Origin: a virus
Direction: 5' to 3' (one strand)
DNA length: 21,918 nt
IMG/VR virus record: IMGVR_UViG_3300020443_000005
Span: 1 to 21,918 of that record
The notes under the pieces were generated by a model. That model was not told the DNA's origin, did no database searches, and was given only the letters and a program-made list of their open reading frames with translations. Made by a program: the position numbers and the translations under genes. Of this stretch, positions 15,728 through 21,304 are shown in pieces (within the stretch, counting starts at the first letter, position 1; the number at the start of each line of letters is the position of its first letter).

Positions 15728-15804
15728 TGGTAGGCGAGGTTGGAATTGAACCAACGACCTCCACCGTATCAGAGTGGTATTCTAACCTGCTGAACTACTC
15801 GCCT
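15728..15804 (-). tRNA. tRNA-Ile (anticodon GAT)
   Basis: Complete cloverleaf: acceptor AGGCGAG/CTCGCCT, D-stem GTTC/GAAT, anticodon stem CCACT/GGTGG with loop CTGATAC, T-arm GTTGG-TTCAATT-CCAAC, discriminator A and an encoded CCA. The anticodon GAT reads AUC and AUU. It lies one base from tRNA-Tyr and is likely made from the same transcript. Confidence 0.93.
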
Positions 15805-15805
15805 A

Positions 15806-15890
15806 TGGTGGGGAGGGATGGAGTCGAACCATCACAGTCTCAGACGGCTGATTTACAGTCAGTTGGGCTCGCCACTTGCTCAGCCTCCCC
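15806..15890 (-). tRNA. tRNA-Tyr (anticodon GTA)
   Basis: Acceptor GGGGAGG/CCTCCCC, anticodon loop CTGTAAA (anticodon GTA), a long class II variable arm, T-arm GATGG-TTCGACT-CCATC, discriminator A and encoded CCA. The outer pair of the anticodon stem appears mismatched (A opposite C), which does not affect identity. One base separates it from tRNA-Ile. Confidence 0.93.
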
Positions 15891-15982: not shown

Positions 15983-16012
15983 ATTGTAACACGATTTGAG
16001 GGTAAATGTCAA
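15983..16012 (-). promoter_or_regulatory. Sigma70-type early promoter for the tRNA/small-gene operon
   Basis: On the minus strand: TTGACA (16007-16012), 18-bp spacer, TACAAT (15983-15988). The -35 is perfect and the -10 is one base off consensus. The -35 overlaps the last codons of the halogenase gene. It would drive the 26-residue gene, tRNA-Tyr, tRNA-Ile and the small genes down to 14319. Confidence 0.8.
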
Positions 16013-17706
16013 GCGTTTTTGTGAATGCTATCTTTTGAATATTGATAGGGACTTGGAAAATCTTTGATTTCTTCATTCCACATCCTTTTTCTTTCTTCAG
16101 TATGTTGTATAAACTTTTCAGTCCATTCTTTAACTAACTGGGAGTATTCTAACTTTTTCCCGTTGCTGTCAAGAACATAAGAGAAAAAGTCGGCTTTATT
16201 ATCTTTTTGATTGTCCAGTAATGGTTCTAATTTATCTATAGGGTACCAATTCATACCAGCCGCTACGGCGTGAATACCAGCTCCCGTAAGATCAATCTGA
16301 AAGTTTTTGCTAACGTATTCACGATGAAAACCTTTAGAAATTCCAGTTGAAATATTGGTAAACATATCTTCGGGATAATCTCGGTTTAGAATGTCTCTCC
16401 AATATTCTGTATCATCTCTGTGAGAAAGTACGTAGGTAAATGCAACAACGTGGGCACATTCATAAAAATCATCGTGACATTTAGCAGTATACTCTCTCCT
16501 ATCCCATTCACTTATACGACCTCTTTTTAATGTTTTAACCAAATTAAATAGAAATTGATATATACTCTGTAATCCATTAGATTGTAATGGTTCTATAAAC
16601 CCAGCAGATAATCCAATTGCTAAAGTATTTTTAACCCACAATTTCGATTGAACACCACACCTCATTGGAATTAAATGATAATCTAAATCTTCGACATTTT
16701 CATAGCCCTTTTTTAGTAGATTGTATTTAAATTCTCGTAATGCGGCGTCCGTTGAAATAAACTTATCTGAAAATACATATCCTGAGCCCATTCTAGACCA
16801 TAACGGGATTTCCCATATCCAACCATTTTCAATCGCAGTACAATTTGTATAATTTACAATTTGTGTTTCTGGATCTGTATAAGGTATTTTAGTCGCCCAG
16901 GCATAATTGTTTGGAATGATATCTGATATGGGTATAAATGGAACTTCAAAGGCTTTAGTCAATAATAAAGATTTGAATCCAGTACAGTCTATAAACAAAT
17001 CTGCTTCTAGTTTTTGACCATTGTCCAATACAAGATATTTAATTCCATCTTCATCCAAAGGAATTTCTTTTACTTCTGCCTGAATATGAGTGAATCTATC
17101 AGCATACTTAGCCTTACAATAATTGTCCCTTAACCATATTCCAAATTTAGTAGCATCAAATTGATAAGCCCATCCGAACCTCCCATCATTTCTATTTTTT
17201 GGGTCTGACAGGTCAATTGAATGAAGTGCTTTATTTTGATTTACTAAAGCCATTACTGGCCAAAAAGTATCAGCAAAATCACTTGCTGGAGTTTCAGGAT
17301 AAAATAATTTTTTGTGTTGCCAGTCAAATGCTGTATACGGCATTTGAGAAGAGTTTTCATACTCTGTTGATTGTTTAGATAAAGTCGGCGTACCAAATGG
17401 ATAATGAAAATGACCTGAATCTTCACGATACCAATTTTCAAATCTAATACTTAGTTTATGGATGGCATCACAATGGTGCATCCAATCAGAGTCTTTGATC
17501 TCTAGCAATTTTAACCAGGCTCCTATACCATTAAAACCACTTTGTTCGCCAGAGACCGTGCTTTCTCCTACTCCAATAGTAGGATGATTAGGAGATTCTA
17601 CAACTGTGATCTGTTTGTCGGGAAATTGATTTAATAATATAGTTGCAGACATCCATCCAGCTGATCCTCCACCCACTATTGTAATATTTTTTGTTTCCAT
17701 AATCAT
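16009..17706 (-). CDS. Flavin-dependent (tryptophan-type) halogenase
   Basis: The 565-residue enzyme has the marks of the flavin-dependent halogenase family, which uses FADH2, O2 and a halide to make hypohalous acid that halogenates an electron-rich substrate. Visible: dinucleotide-binding G-G-G-S-A-G-W (12-18); G-V-G-E-S-T (45-50); the catalytic Lys in H-K-L-S-I-R-F (K84, equivalent to PrnA K79); the family motif W-I-W-E-I-P (296-301), which keeps the flavin site from acting as a monooxygenase; and F-I-E-P-L-Q-S-N-G-L with E372, equivalent to the PrnA glutamate that orients the substrate. All key residues are present, so it should be active. A related cyanophage halogenase (VirX1) has been characterised and iodinates varied substrates. 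The start at 17706 (or the ATG at 17700) lies just after the tRNA-Asp CCA; no Shine-Dalgarno site is seen. Confidence 0.93.
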   Translation of the reverse strand: MIMETKNITIVGGGSAGWMSATILLNQFPDKQITVVESPNHPTIGVGESTVSGEQSGFNGIGAWLKLLEIKDSDWMHHCDAIHKLSIRFENWYREDSGHFHYPFGTPTLSKQSTEYENSSQMPYTAFDWQHKKLFYPETPASDFADTFWPVMALVNQNKALHSIDLSDPKNRNDGRFGWAYQFDATKFGIWLRDNYCKAKYADRFTHIQAEVKEIPLDEDGIKYLVLDNGQKLEADLFIDCTGFKSLLLTKAFEVPFIPISDIIPNNYAWATKIPYTDPETQIVNYTNCTAIENGWIWEIPLWSRMGSGYVFSDKFISTDAALREFKYNLLKKGYENVEDLDYHLIPMRCGVQSKLWVKNTLAIGLSAGFIEPLQSNGLQSIYQFLFNLVKTLKRGRISEWDRREYTAKCHDDFYECAHVVAFTYVLSHRDDTEYWRDILNRDYPEDMFTNISTGISKGFHREYVSKNFQIDLTGAGIHAVAAGMNWYPIDKLEPLLDNQKDNKADFFSYVLDSNGKKLEYSQLVKEWTEKFIQHTEERKRMWNEEIKDFPSPYQYSKDSIHKNA

Positions 17707-17717
17707 TTCATTTCATT

Positions 17718-17793
17718 TGGCGGTCCGTATGGGACTCGAACCCATAATACCGGCGTGACAGGCCAGCGTGATGACCTATTTCACTAACAGACC
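17718..17793 (-). tRNA. tRNA-Asp (anticodon GTC)
   Basis: Cloverleaf: acceptor GGTCTGT/ACGGACC (one G-U), D-stem GTGA/TCAC, anticodon stem CTGGC/GCCGG with loop CTGTCAC, T-arm ATGGG-TTCGAGT-CCCAT, discriminator G and encoded CCA. The CCA end lies 11 bases before the halogenase ATG, so 3' processing of the tRNA would create the 5' end of the halogenase message. Confidence 0.93.
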
Positions 17794-17802
17794 GTGGGGA
17801 AA

Positions 17803-17872
17803 GATGGACGTCTTACTCGCTCCGAGCCTCTGGGCGACCCCGTCTAATATGCTCTAGTATACCTAGTCCATC
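17803..17872 (-). ncRNA. Structured, possibly tRNA-like intergenic RNA segment, unidentified
   Basis: The minus strand has a perfect 7-bp closing stem, GATGGAC with GTCCATC (plus 17866-17872 and 17803-17809), around 56 bases that can form three short hairpins: CTAG/CTAG (17854-17866, competing by one base with the closing stem), GGG/CCC (17832-17840) and CTCG/CGAG (17816-17826). This resembles a cloverleaf outline but has no T-loop consensus and no CCA, so it is not a normal tRNA. A TATACT -10-like box (17856-17861) with a poor -35 lies inside. It may be a tRNA-Asp leader, a degenerate tRNA or a small RNA; the identity is unknown. Confidence 0.35.
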
Positions 17873-17907
17873 CTTGATAGAGGTAATTACTCCTCCCTAT
17901 TGGGCTT

Positions 17908-17932
17908 AAAAAGCCAGACTCGTTTGCCTGGC
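17908..17932 (-). terminator. Rho-independent terminator after the oxygenase-like pair
   Basis: Minus strand: GCCAGGC-AAACGA-GTCTGGC (17913-17932, 7 bp with one G-U) followed directly by TTTTTAA. It lies 26 bases past the stop of the 269-residue gene. The 3' arm can instead pair as GGCTT-TTT-AAGCC with downstream bases, which could weaken termination and allow read-through into tRNA-Asp and the halogenase. Confidence 0.8.
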
Positions 17933-17958
17933 GCAAATCCACTCCCGTTTAGCTTTTC

Positions 17959-18768
17959 TTACAGAAAAAATACTTGATTTATCCTATTATAATCTGTGAA
18001 CATTCCAAGGTCTATATCTGCTTTATGAAGAACATCGGACTGATATAAGACCATTCTATTATACACCATATCAGCCTCAAATTCAACAGTATATTGTTTG
18101 TTAATTTTGTCTTTAATATTTTTAAACTGTTGCTCTTCAGACATAGAAGTTAATACAGGCCCCTTGATATCATATGTTTCACACATATTTTGCCTCCACA
18201 ATTCTACTCTATTTGGAGGGATACTCATTTCACCGTTATAACTATATAAATTTGTTCCTCCGGCACATTCGTCCGGAGTATTTAAATAAACTACACTCCC
18301 AAATTGATATGTGGAAGCTGTCTCACCATTCCAATAATCTTGATGAGGTATTTCAGCTAAAGGATTCTTTTTTATAAAAGAATCATTAGTACAGTTGACC
18401 ATAAACCCTTGATTGTCCCAATTTCTGTTAAATTCGTCAATATCAAATGGTCTATTTTTTATACGTAATGGAATTCTAAAACTCCCATCTTCCAGTAATT
18501 GTGTTTTTTGAACTTTTGGTTTCCATAGTTTATTATCACATAGGTCTAAATATAGATTATATAATTTTTCCTTTACTTCGGGAGTACCTAAAGATGCTCT
18601 AATTCCAGGAAATCCTCCTTTTAATGCCTTGTCATCACCATACTTTAAAGATTTGGCAAGTTCTCTAACTTCATCAGGATCCCTATAGAAATCATCAACA
18701 ATGATGGCTGATCTTCTTTTAATATCTTTAAATGCTACAACCTTAGCATCTCCATTTAATTCAAACAT
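17959..18768 (-). CDS. Fe(II)/2-oxoglutarate oxygenase-like protein, copy 2 (269 aa)
   Basis: The second of two tandem paralogs. It starts M-F-E-L-N-G-D-A-K-V, then I-I-V-D-D-F-Y-R-D-P-D-E-V-R (22-35) and G-G-F-P-G-I-R-A (51-58). This opening resembles small proteins (DUF6445-like, as I recall) encoded beside bacterial tryptophan halogenases. The candidate metal and cosubstrate residues of a double-stranded beta-helix oxygenase are in the right order: H142-Q-D144 (I-P-H-Q-D-Y-W), distal H248 (Q-S-D-V-L-H) and R262. It differs from copy 1 mainly by about 22 extra residues near 84-105. It follows copy 1 after three bases, without its own ribosome-binding site, so it is coupled. The substrate is unknown. 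A P4H-like hydroxylase or a chaperone-like partner of the halogenase are both possible. Confidence 0.8.
   Translation of the reverse strand: MFELNGDAKVVAFKDIKRRSAIIVDDFYRDPDEVRELAKSLKYGDDKALKGGFPGIRASLGTPEVKEKLYNLYLDLCDNKLWKPKVQKTQLLEDGSFRIPLRIKNRPFDIDEFNRNWDNQGFMVNCTNDSFIKKNPLAEIPHQDYWNGETASTYQFGSVVYLNTPDECAGGTNLYSYNGEMSIPPNRVELWRQNMCETYDIKGPVLTSMSEEQQFKNIKDKINKQYTVEFEADMVYNRMVLYQSDVLHKADIDLGMFTDYNRINQVFFL
18225..18267. repeat. Identical 43-nt block shared with 19044-19086
   Basis: Inside the oxygenase-like paralogs, 43 consecutive bases here equal those at 19044-19086, although the proteins differ over much of their length. A second block of 49 identical bases is at 18520-18568 and 19279-19327. 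Confidence 0.9.
18520..18568. repeat. Identical 49-nt block shared with 19279-19327
   Basis: Forty-nine consecutive bases encoding L-Y-N-L-Y-L-D-L-C-D-N-K-L-W are identical in the two tandem genes, including third codon positions. This points to recent duplication or continuing gene conversion between the copies. Confidence 0.9.
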
Positions 18769-18771
18769 CTG

Positions 18772-19533
18772 TTACATAAAAAGGATTTGAACAAGCCGAT
18801 GTGCATTTGTAAACATACCAATGTCTACTTCCATACTATGAAGAACATCTGCTTGATATAAGAACATTCTATTATATTTCATTTCAGCTTCAAATTCAGT
18901 TTTATATAGGGTGTCTCCATCAAGTATGTCTTTAAGGTATTTAAACTTTTTTTCTTCTGACATAGAGGTTAATACCGGTCCCTTAATATCAACAATATCA
19001 GCGTGTCTTTGTAACCACTCTGGTTTCTTTTTTGGAGAAATAGTCATTTCACCGTTATAACTATATAAATTTGTTCCTCCGGCACACTCCTCTGGAGTAT
19101 TTAAATAAATTACACTTCCAAATTGGAGTTTCGGATTTTCGCTAGGCAAATCCTCCCAATAATCTTGATGGGGTATCATACCAAAAAAATTCTGTTTTAA
19201 AAAAGTATCATTAGTAGCATTGACCATAAATCCTTGTATATCCCAATTACTATTAAAGGCTTCAAGATTAAAAGGTCTTTTCCATAGTTTATTATCACAT
19301 AGGTCTAAATATAGATTATATAATTTTCCTTTTACTTCAGGAATCCTGAAATGCGAACTGCTTCTAATTCCAGGAAATCCTCCTTTCGCGGCTTCCCCAT
19401 CTCCATACTTTAAAGATAAAGCAAGTTCTCTAACTTCATCTGGATCCTTATAGACATCATCTACAATGATAGCGGATCGTCCATTAATATCTTTGAATGC
19501 TGTAACTTTTGCATCTCCATTAAGTTCAAACAC
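18772..19533 (-). CDS. Fe(II)/2-oxoglutarate oxygenase-like protein, copy 1 (253 aa)
   Basis: First of the tandem pair and shorter than copy 2. It shares the opening (M-F-E-L-N-G-D-A-K-V, then A-I-I-V-D-D-V-Y-K-D-P-D-E-V-R) and keeps the putative iron and cosubstrate set: H122-Q-D124 in I-P-H-Q-D-Y-W, H232 in Q-A-D-V-L-H, and R246. The region Y-L-N-T-P-E-E-C-A-G-G-T-N-L-Y (143-157) is a typical strand before the distal half of the fold. The start is a GTG at 19533 that shares its first base with the preceding stop (TAGTG), with CAGGGA upstream as ribosome-binding site, so it is translationally coupled to the 101-residue gene. Both copies appear intact, so they may act on different substrates or as a heterodimer. 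Confidence 0.8.
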   Translation of the reverse strand: MFELNGDAKVTAFKDINGRSAIIVDDVYKDPDEVRELALSLKYGDGEAAKGGFPGIRSSSHFRIPEVKGKLYNLYLDLCDNKLWKRPFNLEAFNSNWDIQGFMVNATNDTFLKQNFFGMIPHQDYWEDLPSENPKLQFGSVIYLNTPEECAGGTNLYSYNGEMTISPKKKPEWLQRHADIVDIKGPVLTSMSEEKKFKYLKDILDGDTLYKTEFEAEMKYNRMFLYQADVLHSMEVDIGMFTNAHRLVQILFM

Positions 19534-19838
19534 TATCCCTGTTCAATCGATATGTCTTTTGTGTTTGGATCAAACTTTACTGTAAAGGTTACTTCTATTG
19601 GTTTAAGAGATCCATCTAAATTGACAATAGGTAATTTTCCGTCAACTACAGCCACCAATGCATCTTTAGCATTTGTGAATTCGTGTGCTGGATCAGCTTT
19701 GATAACTTTGTCTAATTCCTTTTTCGCAGTATCTGGAAGTAAATCATCAATCATACTTTCCACGTGTTCTACTGCTAAATCTTGTGCCTTGTCTACTACA
19801 AGGCCTGCAATTACATTAAATAATAATACGGGTAACAT
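19533..19838 (-). CDS. Small membrane-anchored or secreted protein (101 aa)
   Basis: Function unknown. Residues 1-15 (M-L-P-V-L-L-F-N-V-I-A-G-L-V-V) are hydrophobic and could anchor the protein or serve as a signal without a basic n-region. The rest is acidic and helical (D-K-A-Q-D-L-A-V-E-H-V-E-S-M-I-D-D-L), with a D-P-A-H-E-F-x-x-A segment I associate with conserved hypothetical proteins of T4-like marine phages, and ends in a beta-rich V-T-F-T-V-K-F. GGAGA lies 6-10 nt before the ATG. It opens the accessory operon, just after the gp32 terminator, and its stop overlaps the oxygenase-like gene. A holin-like role is possible but unsupported. Confidence 0.75.
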   Translation of the reverse strand: MLPVLLFNVIAGLVVDKAQDLAVEHVESMIDDLLPDTAKKELDKVIKADPAHEFTNAKDALVAVVDGKLPIVNLDGSLKPIEVTFTVKFDPNTKDISIEQG

Positions 19839-19905: not shown

Positions 19906-20796
19906 TTATGCTTCAGCTAATTTGCTAAAGTAACTCATAGTATCATCTGTTGAACCTGGATCAGGATCTCCATCAAAAGGCAAGTCCTCAGATTCAGTCA
20001 TTGTAGATGTAGGTGCTGAAACTGATTCGGCTGTGAAAGCTGAAGTGTCGGTAGAAGCTCCGATTACTCGGGCAAACTTTTTCTTCAACTCTTCATAAGA
20101 CTTAAACTTATCTTCAGCAATCTCGGCTTCGAGTGAATAGAATCCATTATATAATGTCTCCATTTCTTCTTCAGTTTTCAACCATTGTGATGGCTCTTCA
20201 AAGCTGGATTTGTCATACTTCACAAAACCGTCTGCTTTGCGAGCCTTCAGTTTGAAGTTAGCTCCGTTAAATAGATTAAATACATTAACGGGAGATTCAT
20301 CTTCAAATTGCGGTTCACCAGCGGCCTGTATCATATCAAAAATAGACTTACCATACTTGAAGAGGAATACTTTCCCTTCATTTTCAGGATGGGCTTGATC
20401 TTGAACAACATAGATGTTGGAGATATACTGAAGCCTACGCTTCCTATCTCGTGCAATCTGCTTGTTGCTGTCAATACCAGAATTCCACAACTCTGAATTA
20501 GCTTCAGAAACTGGGTCCTGTTGACCAATAGTTGTGAGGGAATTCTCGATATACCATCCACCTTTACCTTTAAATCCGTGTGTATATATTTTTACAAACG
20601 GGAAGTCTTCCTTTTCTGGCGAATCAAGAAAACGAATAATAGCATATCCGTTACTTGACTTGTCACGTTCTAACTTCCAGTAACGGTCGTCTATGTATGA
20701 TTGGTTCGCACCACCACCGGCGGCGTTTAACTTTTCCATCATTGATCCTACGTCCTTTTTAGAATTAGAACGTTTCTTTAGAGCGGCAAAACTCAT
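19906..20796 (-). CDS. 32: gp32-like single-stranded-DNA-binding protein
   Basis: This is the T4 gp32 family (296 aa here, 301 in T4), which coats single-stranded DNA in replication, recombination and repair. The N-terminal basic segment (F-A-A-L-K-K-R-S-N-S-K-K) matches the cooperativity LAST motif region. The OB-fold core has Y-W-K-L-E-R-D, G-Y-A-I-I-R-F-L (51-58), H-G-F-K-G-K-G-G-W-Y-I-E-N-S (73-86) and N-I-Y-V-V-Q-D. The C-terminus is acidic and flexible (about 265-287), as needed to recruit replication proteins. In T4 gp32 a zinc ion is held by one His and three Cys; here H73 remains but the protein has no cysteine at all, as in other marine relatives I recall. AGGAG lies 9-13 nt before the ATG at 20796, and a terminator follows. 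Confidence 0.95.
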   Translation of the reverse strand: MSFAALKKRSNSKKDVGSMMEKLNAAGGGANQSYIDDRYWKLERDKSSNGYAIIRFLDSPEKEDFPFVKIYTHGFKGKGGWYIENSLTTIGQQDPVSEANSELWNSGIDSNKQIARDRKRRLQYISNIYVVQDQAHPENEGKVFLFKYGKSIFDMIQAAGEPQFEDESPVNVFNLFNGANFKLKARKADGFVKYDKSSFEEPSQWLKTEEEMETLYNGFYSLEAEIAEDKFKSYEELKKKFARVIGASTDTSAFTAESVSAPTSTMTESEDLPFDGDPDPGSTDDTMSYFSKLAEA

Positions 20797-20876: not shown

Positions 20877-21254
20877 CTACACAGGAGCAACGGGGTCAGT
20901 TTGTGCGGAGGGATCAGGAACAATCTTTAAATCTGCTCCTCCGGTTGGCGTTGCTACTGATTTAGCGATTTTGCTTTCGGGTGGTCTCTTAGAATTTGGA
21001 ATAGGAGACCCCTCGACTGGCTCAGGCGCTTCTGGCCCTTCCATAACAGACTTGATTGCTTGAGCAAATCCTGCTCTCGCCATTTCAAGTCGTTGGACTT
21101 CTTTATCAATCGCCACGAGATGTTCAATCGCTATCTTCGCCACGTTTGGTAATGATTCCACATTATAATCCGCGCCATCAATACGTACAGTAGATTTCTG
21201 TATATATGCGGGCTCGGTTGATTTTACTTTTTCTTCTTTCTTTTCTATTGCCAT
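20877..21254 (-). CDS. Conserved phage protein with helical core (125 aa)
   Basis: The 125-residue product begins Lys/Glu-rich, then T-V-R-I-D-G-A-D-Y-N-V-E-S-L-P-N-V-A-K, then a helix A-I-E-H-L-V-A-I-D-K-E-V-Q-R-L-E, and ends in a Pro/Thr/Ala-rich tail. A D-G-x-x-Y-x-V-E-S-L-P opening followed by a helix with Q-R-L recalls small proteins (DUF6447-like) in T4-like cyanophage genomes; the role is unknown. It is the first gene after the double promoter at 21297-21340. It lies 80 bases upstream of gp32 without a terminator between, so gp32 is probably on the same transcript. Confidence 0.8.
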   Translation of the reverse strand: MAIEKKEEKVKSTEPAYIQKSTVRIDGADYNVESLPNVAKIAIEHLVAIDKEVQRLEMARAGFAQAIKSVMEGPEAPEPVEGSPIPNSKRPPESKIAKSVATPTGGADLKIVPDPSAQTDPVAPV

Positions 21255-21296: not shown

Positions 21297-21304
21297 TATT
21301 TATA
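21297..21304 (-). promoter_or_regulatory. T4-type late promoter box overlapping an early promoter
   Basis: TATAAATAC on the minus strand, 43 bases before the ATG at 21254. The box lies at the expected start point of the sigma70 promoter just upstream, so the same genes could be read early by host sigma70 and late by the phage sigma factor. Confidence 0.65.

Follow-up and report, generated by a model that had tools for sequence, protein, structure and literature searches.

A VirX1-clade halogenase and two DUF6445 oxygenase-like proteins in a T4-like phage: a possible module for decorating tail proteins or their glycans

To our knowledge, viral flavin-dependent halogenases (FDHs), recognized as a group years ago, still have no natural substrate assigned to them. 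One of them, VirX1 from cyanophage Syn10 (PDB 6qgm), has a broad, open active site and halogenates many small aromatics. Iyer et al. 2021 (PMC7824862) predicted cyanophage clusters that combine a halogenase with 2-oxoglutarate (2OG)-Fe oxygenases and carbamoyltransferases, with a HemK-like methylase also present in the S-SSM6a/S-SSM7 cluster. Here we analysed a 21.9-kb viral record from a marine T4-like phage (IMG/VR IMGVR_UViG_3300020443_000005, positions 1 to 21,918; hereafter, the window), which carries an FDH gene close to two paralogous DUF6445 genes, dufA and dufB. Phage halogenases with 2OG enzymes are thus a kind already predicted in the literature, of which the window is a variant with a DUF6445 pair. 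We tentatively propose that these proteins form a two-chemistry module, combining halogenation with hydroxylation, whose most likely role would be to decorate phage tail proteins or their glycans.

VirX1 shares its motifs, fold and viral clade with the window halogenase, at about 34% identity. However, VirX1 stands in tandem with a second halogenase and has mainly PF13759/PF13640 oxygenases as neighbours, whereas the window has two DUF6445 paralogues, gp32 and tRNA genes. In Syn10 (113996-117101), VirX1 is CPUG_00131, annotated as hypothetical; tandem halogenases are also found in P-TIM40, S-RIM44 and P-RSM6. The S-SSM6a/S-SSM7 cluster resembles the window in pairing a phage halogenase with 2OG-Fe oxygenases, and S-SSM7 has two DUF6445 genes ≤6 kb from its halogenase. 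The window differs in that its halogenase is only 27% identical and its DUF6445 genes are adjacent and duplicated; no carbamoyltransferase or sugar genes were seen among the proteins scanned from this 21.9-kb fragment. The original prediction, made from the DNA letters, had called such a grouping undescribed in phages. This stands for the exact pair of FDH and DUF6445, which was not found in the literature searched; that search also returned no paper naming DUF6445 and none joining a halogenase with SapC, TonB or cupin. It does not stand for the wider type, since halogenase/2OG clusters had been predicted (PMC7824862) and, in Syn10, the gene for VirX1 is itself followed by a run of 2OG genes, one of which, at a distance of about 5 kb, is DUF6445 (49 bits).

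Catalytic residues and folds

All three open reading frames (ORFs) are intact on the minus strand, at the positions first reported for them (Table 1). The halogenase carries each of the key residues that had been attributed to it, with GGGSAG starting at residue 12, K84, WIWEIP starting at residue 296, and E372. It matched PF04820 (1.4e-90, 304.9 bits; gathering cut-off 21) and PHROG 2928, 'tryptophan halogenase' (1e-119), and its best PDB sequence match was VirX1 (2.2e-76). K84, E372 and W296/W298/P301 are invariant among 24 viral homologues. VirX1 superposes on the AlphaFold2 (AF2) model (predicted local distance difference test (pLDDT) 85.2) with a root mean square deviation of 2.2 over 503 residues. 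In a maximum-likelihood tree, 27 viral rows and one contig from a metagenome-assembled genome fell on one side of a branch with support of 100/92, within which the subclade containing VirX1 and the window halogenase was supported at 100/97. Judged by its sequence, the protein is an intact FDH of the viral VirX1 clade, apart from the bacterial enzymes.

PrnA/RebH/PyrH-type enzymes have a C-terminal Trp-binding motif, (Y/H)YHG..YS, which is tabulated for free-tryptophan halogenases in PMC8269204 and is absent from the window halogenase translation. We therefore rejected PrnA-type chlorination of free tryptophan (pyrrolnitrin), a reading repeated in cyanophage papers. The window enzyme has the YPFG of class C, the broad-scope class that includes VirX1 and BrvH.

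Both paralogues belong to DUF6445 (PF20043; 9.7e-15 and 55.5 bits for dufA, 1.2e-11 and 45.4 bits for dufB, with a gathering cut-off of 24 bits) and share 61% identity. The H-x-D...H...R set originally noticed in them corresponds to H142-x-D144, H248 and R262 in dufA and to H122-x-D124, H232 and R246 in dufB. These four positions are invariant in an alignment of 51 viral homologues, as are N163, GGT 170-172 and N237-R238 (dufA numbering), and the set is thus not due to chance. Across 67 diverse DUF6445 sequences, the PHxD, distal His, Arg and GGT/NR signature is retained in nearly all.

AF2 predicted a double-stranded beta-helix for DUF6445 (pLDDT 91.5), the fold on which the description of the paralogues as oxygenase-like had been staked beforehand. 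Using VIA-align, we found the model to be closest to OGFOD1 (Z 13.7), mimivirus lysyl hydroxylase L230 (12.8), LH3 (12.5), a Trichoplax prolyl hydroxylase (12.3), PHD2 (12.1) and the Pseudomonas putida EF-Tu prolyl hydroxylase PPHD (12.0). All the matches listed for the model are Fe/2OG enzymes, and the solved structures among the best matches are mostly polypeptide prolyl or lysyl hydroxylases. These P4H/PLOD-type enzymes share the beta-helix and the H-x-D...H...R set, and align with Z of 12-13.7 over about 160-176 residues; DUF6445 differs in its low identity to them (11-20%) and in placing the Arg 14 residues past the distal His. Foldseek with the same model was borderline on PDB (E about 1e-3) and clear on viral models. 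Searching PDB sequences with a DUF6445 profile gave no significant match, so the fold assignment is based on the predicted model. On that model, DUF6445 is likely a P4H-type Fe/2OG oxygenase-like family, which gives the family a fold and a likely chemistry.

For the halogenase, the ratio of non-synonymous to synonymous substitution rates was about 0.3; the DUF6445 genes gave about 0.4-0.55, and gp32 gave 0.12. By this measure, the halogenase and DUF6445 genes are under purifying selection, constrained yet faster-evolving than gp32.

Association of halogenases with oxygenase genes

We next examined the neighbours of viral halogenases. A 2OG-type gene directly adjoins 48 of 75 distinct viral halogenases, and genes of this type make up 54% of immediate halogenase neighbours but 13% of the ORFs that lie further off than five genes (odds 8.1). 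Among 20 halogenase loci from 17 phage genomes, a 2OG gene was present at a distance of ≤4 kb in 15, where 5.8 would be expected, and 2OG families lead both the PHROG and the Pfam tallies of 138 viral halogenase neighbours. Our 2OG-type count takes in PHROG 274, a cluster that bears the label 'DNA endonuclease V' and of which one member, from S-SSM7, was checked. This gene, which lies beside the halogenase (L018 5438-5992), scored above the 2OG-FeII_Oxy_3 cut-off, and the endonuclease label thus appears mistaken, at least in this case.

The pairing also occurs in bacteria, as the original prediction had stated. DUF6445 was present in 16 of 36 halogenase-bearing bacterial genomes, and 11 of the 22 strong DUF6445 genes lie ≤1.1 kb from a halogenase, compared with 0.21 expected; a search of a plasmid collection for DUF6445 found no match. 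In loci from Colwellia (L254), Sphingorhabdus (L244) and Asticcacaulis (L262), the FDH and DUF6445 genes stand side by side as in the window, accompanied by SapC and TonB-receptor genes, neither of which is present in the window. Halogenases next to DUF6445 fall in different clades of the tree in phages and in bacteria, and the DUF6445 proteins themselves are distant from each other, with bacterial members matching the viral profile at E of 1e-6 to 1e-16. The association is therefore old or has arisen more than once. The tree lends no support to a recent bacterial origin of the phage pair by transfer.

Gene order, promoters and relatives of the locus

The window contains the T4-like markers gp5 OB domain, tail tube, baseplate tail tube cap, Gp23-like capsid protein and gp32. 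Its minus strand reads orf125, gp32, orf101, dufB, dufA, a non-coding element, tRNA-Asp, halogenase, tRNA-Tyr and tRNA-Ile. The description of the halogenase and both paralogues as a three-gene cassette does not hold if a single unit is meant. From dufA to the halogenase there is a gap of 252 bp, which is occupied by the tRNA-Asp gene and the conserved element; thus, the three genes are co-directional but do not form one tight operon. Their insertion sites also differ, the halogenase being at tRNA-Asp/tRNA-Tyr and DUF6445 at orf101/element.

Table 1 Features of the halogenase and DUF6445 locus in the window
Feature	Position	Strand	Evidence or remark
Flavin-dependent halogenase (565 aa) of the VirX1-type viral clade	16009..17706	-	PF04820, VirX1 match, motifs, model, tree
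dufA, DUF6445 paralogue A, 269 aa, predicted P4H-type Fe/2OG oxygenase fold	17959..18768	-	PF20043, motif, AF2 model
dufB, DUF6445 paralogue B, 253 aa, GTG start	18772..19533	-	PF20043, dufA identity, motif
tRNA-Asp (gtc), between dufA and halogenase	17718..17793	-	ARAGORN; Rfam tRNA 63.1 bits
Conserved non-coding element, ~165 nt, between dufA and tRNA-Asp	17794..17958	-	Kept in relatives
tRNA-Tyr, 3' side of halogenase	15806..15890	-	ARAGORN
tRNA-Ile	15728..15804	-	ARAGORN
orf101, function unassigned, directly upstream of dufB	19533..19838	-	69-100% identity in L002, L009, L011, L012, L022, L269
gp32-like single-stranded DNA-binding protein	19906..20796	-	PF08804 4.5e-43; PHROG 224 4.5e-102
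orf125, starts co-directional run ending in halogenase/DUF6445 genes	20877..21254	-	Conserved in relatives
T4-type late promoter motif TATAAATA	21297..21304	-	Exact match; sigma-70-like TTGACA/TATAAT pair precedes

A neighbourhood survey showed that, as anticipated, halogenase and DUF6445 recur together in other phages: the order DUF6445-DUF6445-halogenase is found again in L002, and DUF6445-halogenase in L022. All relatives of the locus have orf101. One of them, L269, retains orf101, the element and the tRNAs and is without both DUF6445 genes and the halogenase, the latter being absent between its tRNA-Asp and tRNA-Tyr. At L269 2178 (minus strand), the first codons of a DUF6445 gene (MFELNGDA) are fused out of frame to the final codons of one (RMNQILFL, stop); judging by these two ends, the junction is a deletion scar of DUF6445. 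In L010, DUF6445 is at a third place. The halogenases next closest to that of the window (L005, L006 and L007) are flanked by a radical-SAM gene and by an unidentified one, without an oxygenase neighbour, and these loci are close to capsid-like and tail-tube-like genes.

Besides the window, the element was found only in L002 (9820-9985), L022 (5066-5227) and L269 (1989-2160, minus strand), making four phages. The window and L002 copies share 97.6% nucleotide identity over 166 nt, with nearby proteins 57-66% identical. It adjoins tRNA-Asp, except in L002, where tRNA-Val takes this place. No Rfam family matched the element. Two compensatory pairs are present in its consensus fold, whose closing helix of 10 bp includes a compensatory pair; the spacer RNA fold taken alone was no better than shuffles (z -0.92).

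Upstream of orf125, the TTGACA/TATAAT pair and TATAAATA are kept in six relatives. Exact TATAAATA sites stand just upstream of ORFs in 4 of 6 cases in the window, compared with 0.09 expected from dinucleotide shuffles, and it is therefore very likely, from motif placement, that this phage uses T4-type late promoters of the TATAAATA type. A TTGACA/TACAAT promoter precedes tRNA-Tyr, and its -35 box shares bases with the stop codon of the halogenase (16009-16020, minus strand); this promoter is also kept in the halogenase-free L269. Elsewhere in the window, an iron-sulphur cluster assembly gene (A-type carrier, PF01521; 9599-9964, plus strand) is found among phage structural genes.

Possible substrates of the two chemistries

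We infer the activity of these enzymes, a substrate common to them and its membership of the virion as follows. The halogenase would use host-supplied FADH2, O2 and halide to form hypohalous acid (HOX), which K84 would relay to an electron-rich ring (a Trp or Tyr side chain, an indole or a phenol) activated by E372. The DUF6445 enzymes would hold Fe(II) through H-x-D...H and 2OG through the distal Arg, and would hydroxylate the same target, or a neighbouring one, at an aliphatic C-H. This target would most likely be a phage product, namely a tail-fibre or baseplate protein or its glycan. Collagen-type lysyl hydroxylases make hydroxylysine for glycosylation and, by analogy, hydroxylation in the phage may create an anchor for a glycan. 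We know of no virus in which halogenation and hydroxylation serve as post-translational virion chemistry.

Viral DUF6445 genes lie mostly beside baseplate or tail-fibre-assembly genes, and two contexts recur. In the first, DUF6445 stands between gp5 and homologues of the window protein encoded at 134-2554 (15 contigs); in the second, it follows a tail-fibre-assembly-like gene and is itself followed by a glycosyltransferase family 9 (GT9)-like gene and a carbamoyltransferase (38 contigs). HldE-like sugar genes often accompany the second context (27 loci). S-SSM7 and Sf-FS3 each have a DUF6445 gene immediately before a giant fibre gene. Halogenases directly follow or adjoin fibre-type genes in seven cyanophage isolates (Sf-CH11, Sf-FR1, S-CREM1, S-RIM44, Sf-FP1, S-WAM1 and S-SRM01), that of S-SRM01 lying between the tail-fibre region and the gp37-gp38 adhesin gene. 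Taken with the fold, this genome context leads us to lean towards tail proteins or tail glycans as the substrate.

A single row in L077 (710-10736) comprises tail genes, DUF6445, a GT9-like gene, a carbamoyltransferase, a 2OG gene, two halogenases, a nucleotidyltransferase and a PfkB kinase; from its gene content, it looks like a pathway for a halogenated or carbamoylated glycan beside tail genes. The match of phrog_8954 to GT9 heptosyltransferases was weak (E 0.005-0.09), and this assignment was unsupported by a PDB profile search.

Several observations weigh against a tail substrate. In the window, the halogenase and DUF6445 genes lie in the gp32/tRNA region with no adjoining fibre gene, and the non-oxygenase neighbours of viral halogenases are replication genes (DNA polymerase, UvsX and SbcD) as often as virion genes. 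The contigs of both contexts (38 and 15) are related to one another and do not count as independent. A virion gene is near DUF6445 in 69 of 117 cases, a count without a background control; virion genes are frequent in T4-like genomes, which weakens proximity as an argument, and we rejected this count as proof. P4H-like folds also include small-molecule enzymes, one of which, PolD, appears in the same VIA-align list (Z 12.2); the fold therefore points to a polypeptide substrate without proving one. Finally, the orf125 promoter has early-like as well as late-like features, so the time of expression does not help to choose between the readings.

Because of the gp32/tRNA location, the replication-gene neighbours, the relatedness of the contigs and the uncontrolled virion-gene count, synthesis or modification of a halogenated metabolite (an antibiotic, a signal, or a capsule or lipopolysaccharide precursor) that helps host or phage stays a strong rival, even if we consider it somewhat unlikely. 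Such a role was predicted for the S-SSM6a/S-SSM7 cluster (Iyer et al. 2021, PMC7824862), and would suit the gathering of FDH, 2OG, carbamoyltransferase and HldE-like kinase/nucleotidyltransferase genes in L077 and S-SSM7, the small aromatics accepted by VirX1, and the TonB-dependent receptors and SapC that sit with the bacterial pair. However, no polyketide synthase, non-ribosomal peptide synthetase, aminotransferase or flavin reductase was found among the proteins scanned in the window, itself a fragment, and polypeptide hydroxylases dominate the DUF6445 fold list. We regard it as less probable again, and doubtful, that the genes have no shared function and are separate accessory genes gathered at a tRNA-rich plastic site. 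The intervening tRNA-Asp and element, the separate insertion sites, the third DUF6445 position in L010 and the oxygenase-free halogenases of L005-L007 are all consistent with this explanation, but both parts are present in the window, L002 and L022 and both are absent in L269, 2OG genes adjoin viral halogenases far more often than the background would give, and bacteria show the same pairing with another halogenase clade.

The two other explanations that we considered have a low probability. PHROG 1644 is labelled 'minor coat protein' and filed under head and packaging, and in viruses DUF6445 is found clustered with genes for the baseplate and fibres, as would be expected of a mainly non-catalytic virion component; a structural role, however, would need no invariant metal triad, and we consider it very unlikely given that nearly all of the 67 sequences keep their signature residues in an Fe/2OG fold. 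Modification of nucleobases or DNA, suggested by the company of gp32 and by viral halogenases located between DNA polymerase and UvsX genes, seems more improbable still: those positions reflect T4-like core gene order, and the closest folds are P4H-type rather than AlkB/TET-type.

Modification of tail proteins or their glycans, the reading that we tentatively prefer, may extend beyond this locus. It is possible, although we hold this wider proposal to be unlikely as yet, that many marine tailed phages, including that of the window, decorate their own tail proteins or glycans by electrophilic halogenation and Fe/2OG hydroxylation, thereby tuning adsorption or resisting receptor change. DUF6445, a Pfam family of unknown function, gains a fold and a likely chemistry, and pairs with halogenases in bacteria as well as in phages. 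The halogenase/2OG neighbourhoods, together with those joining DUF6445 to baseplate, fibre, heptosyltransferase-like and carbamoyltransferase genes, make the question of the substrate directly testable on cultured phages.

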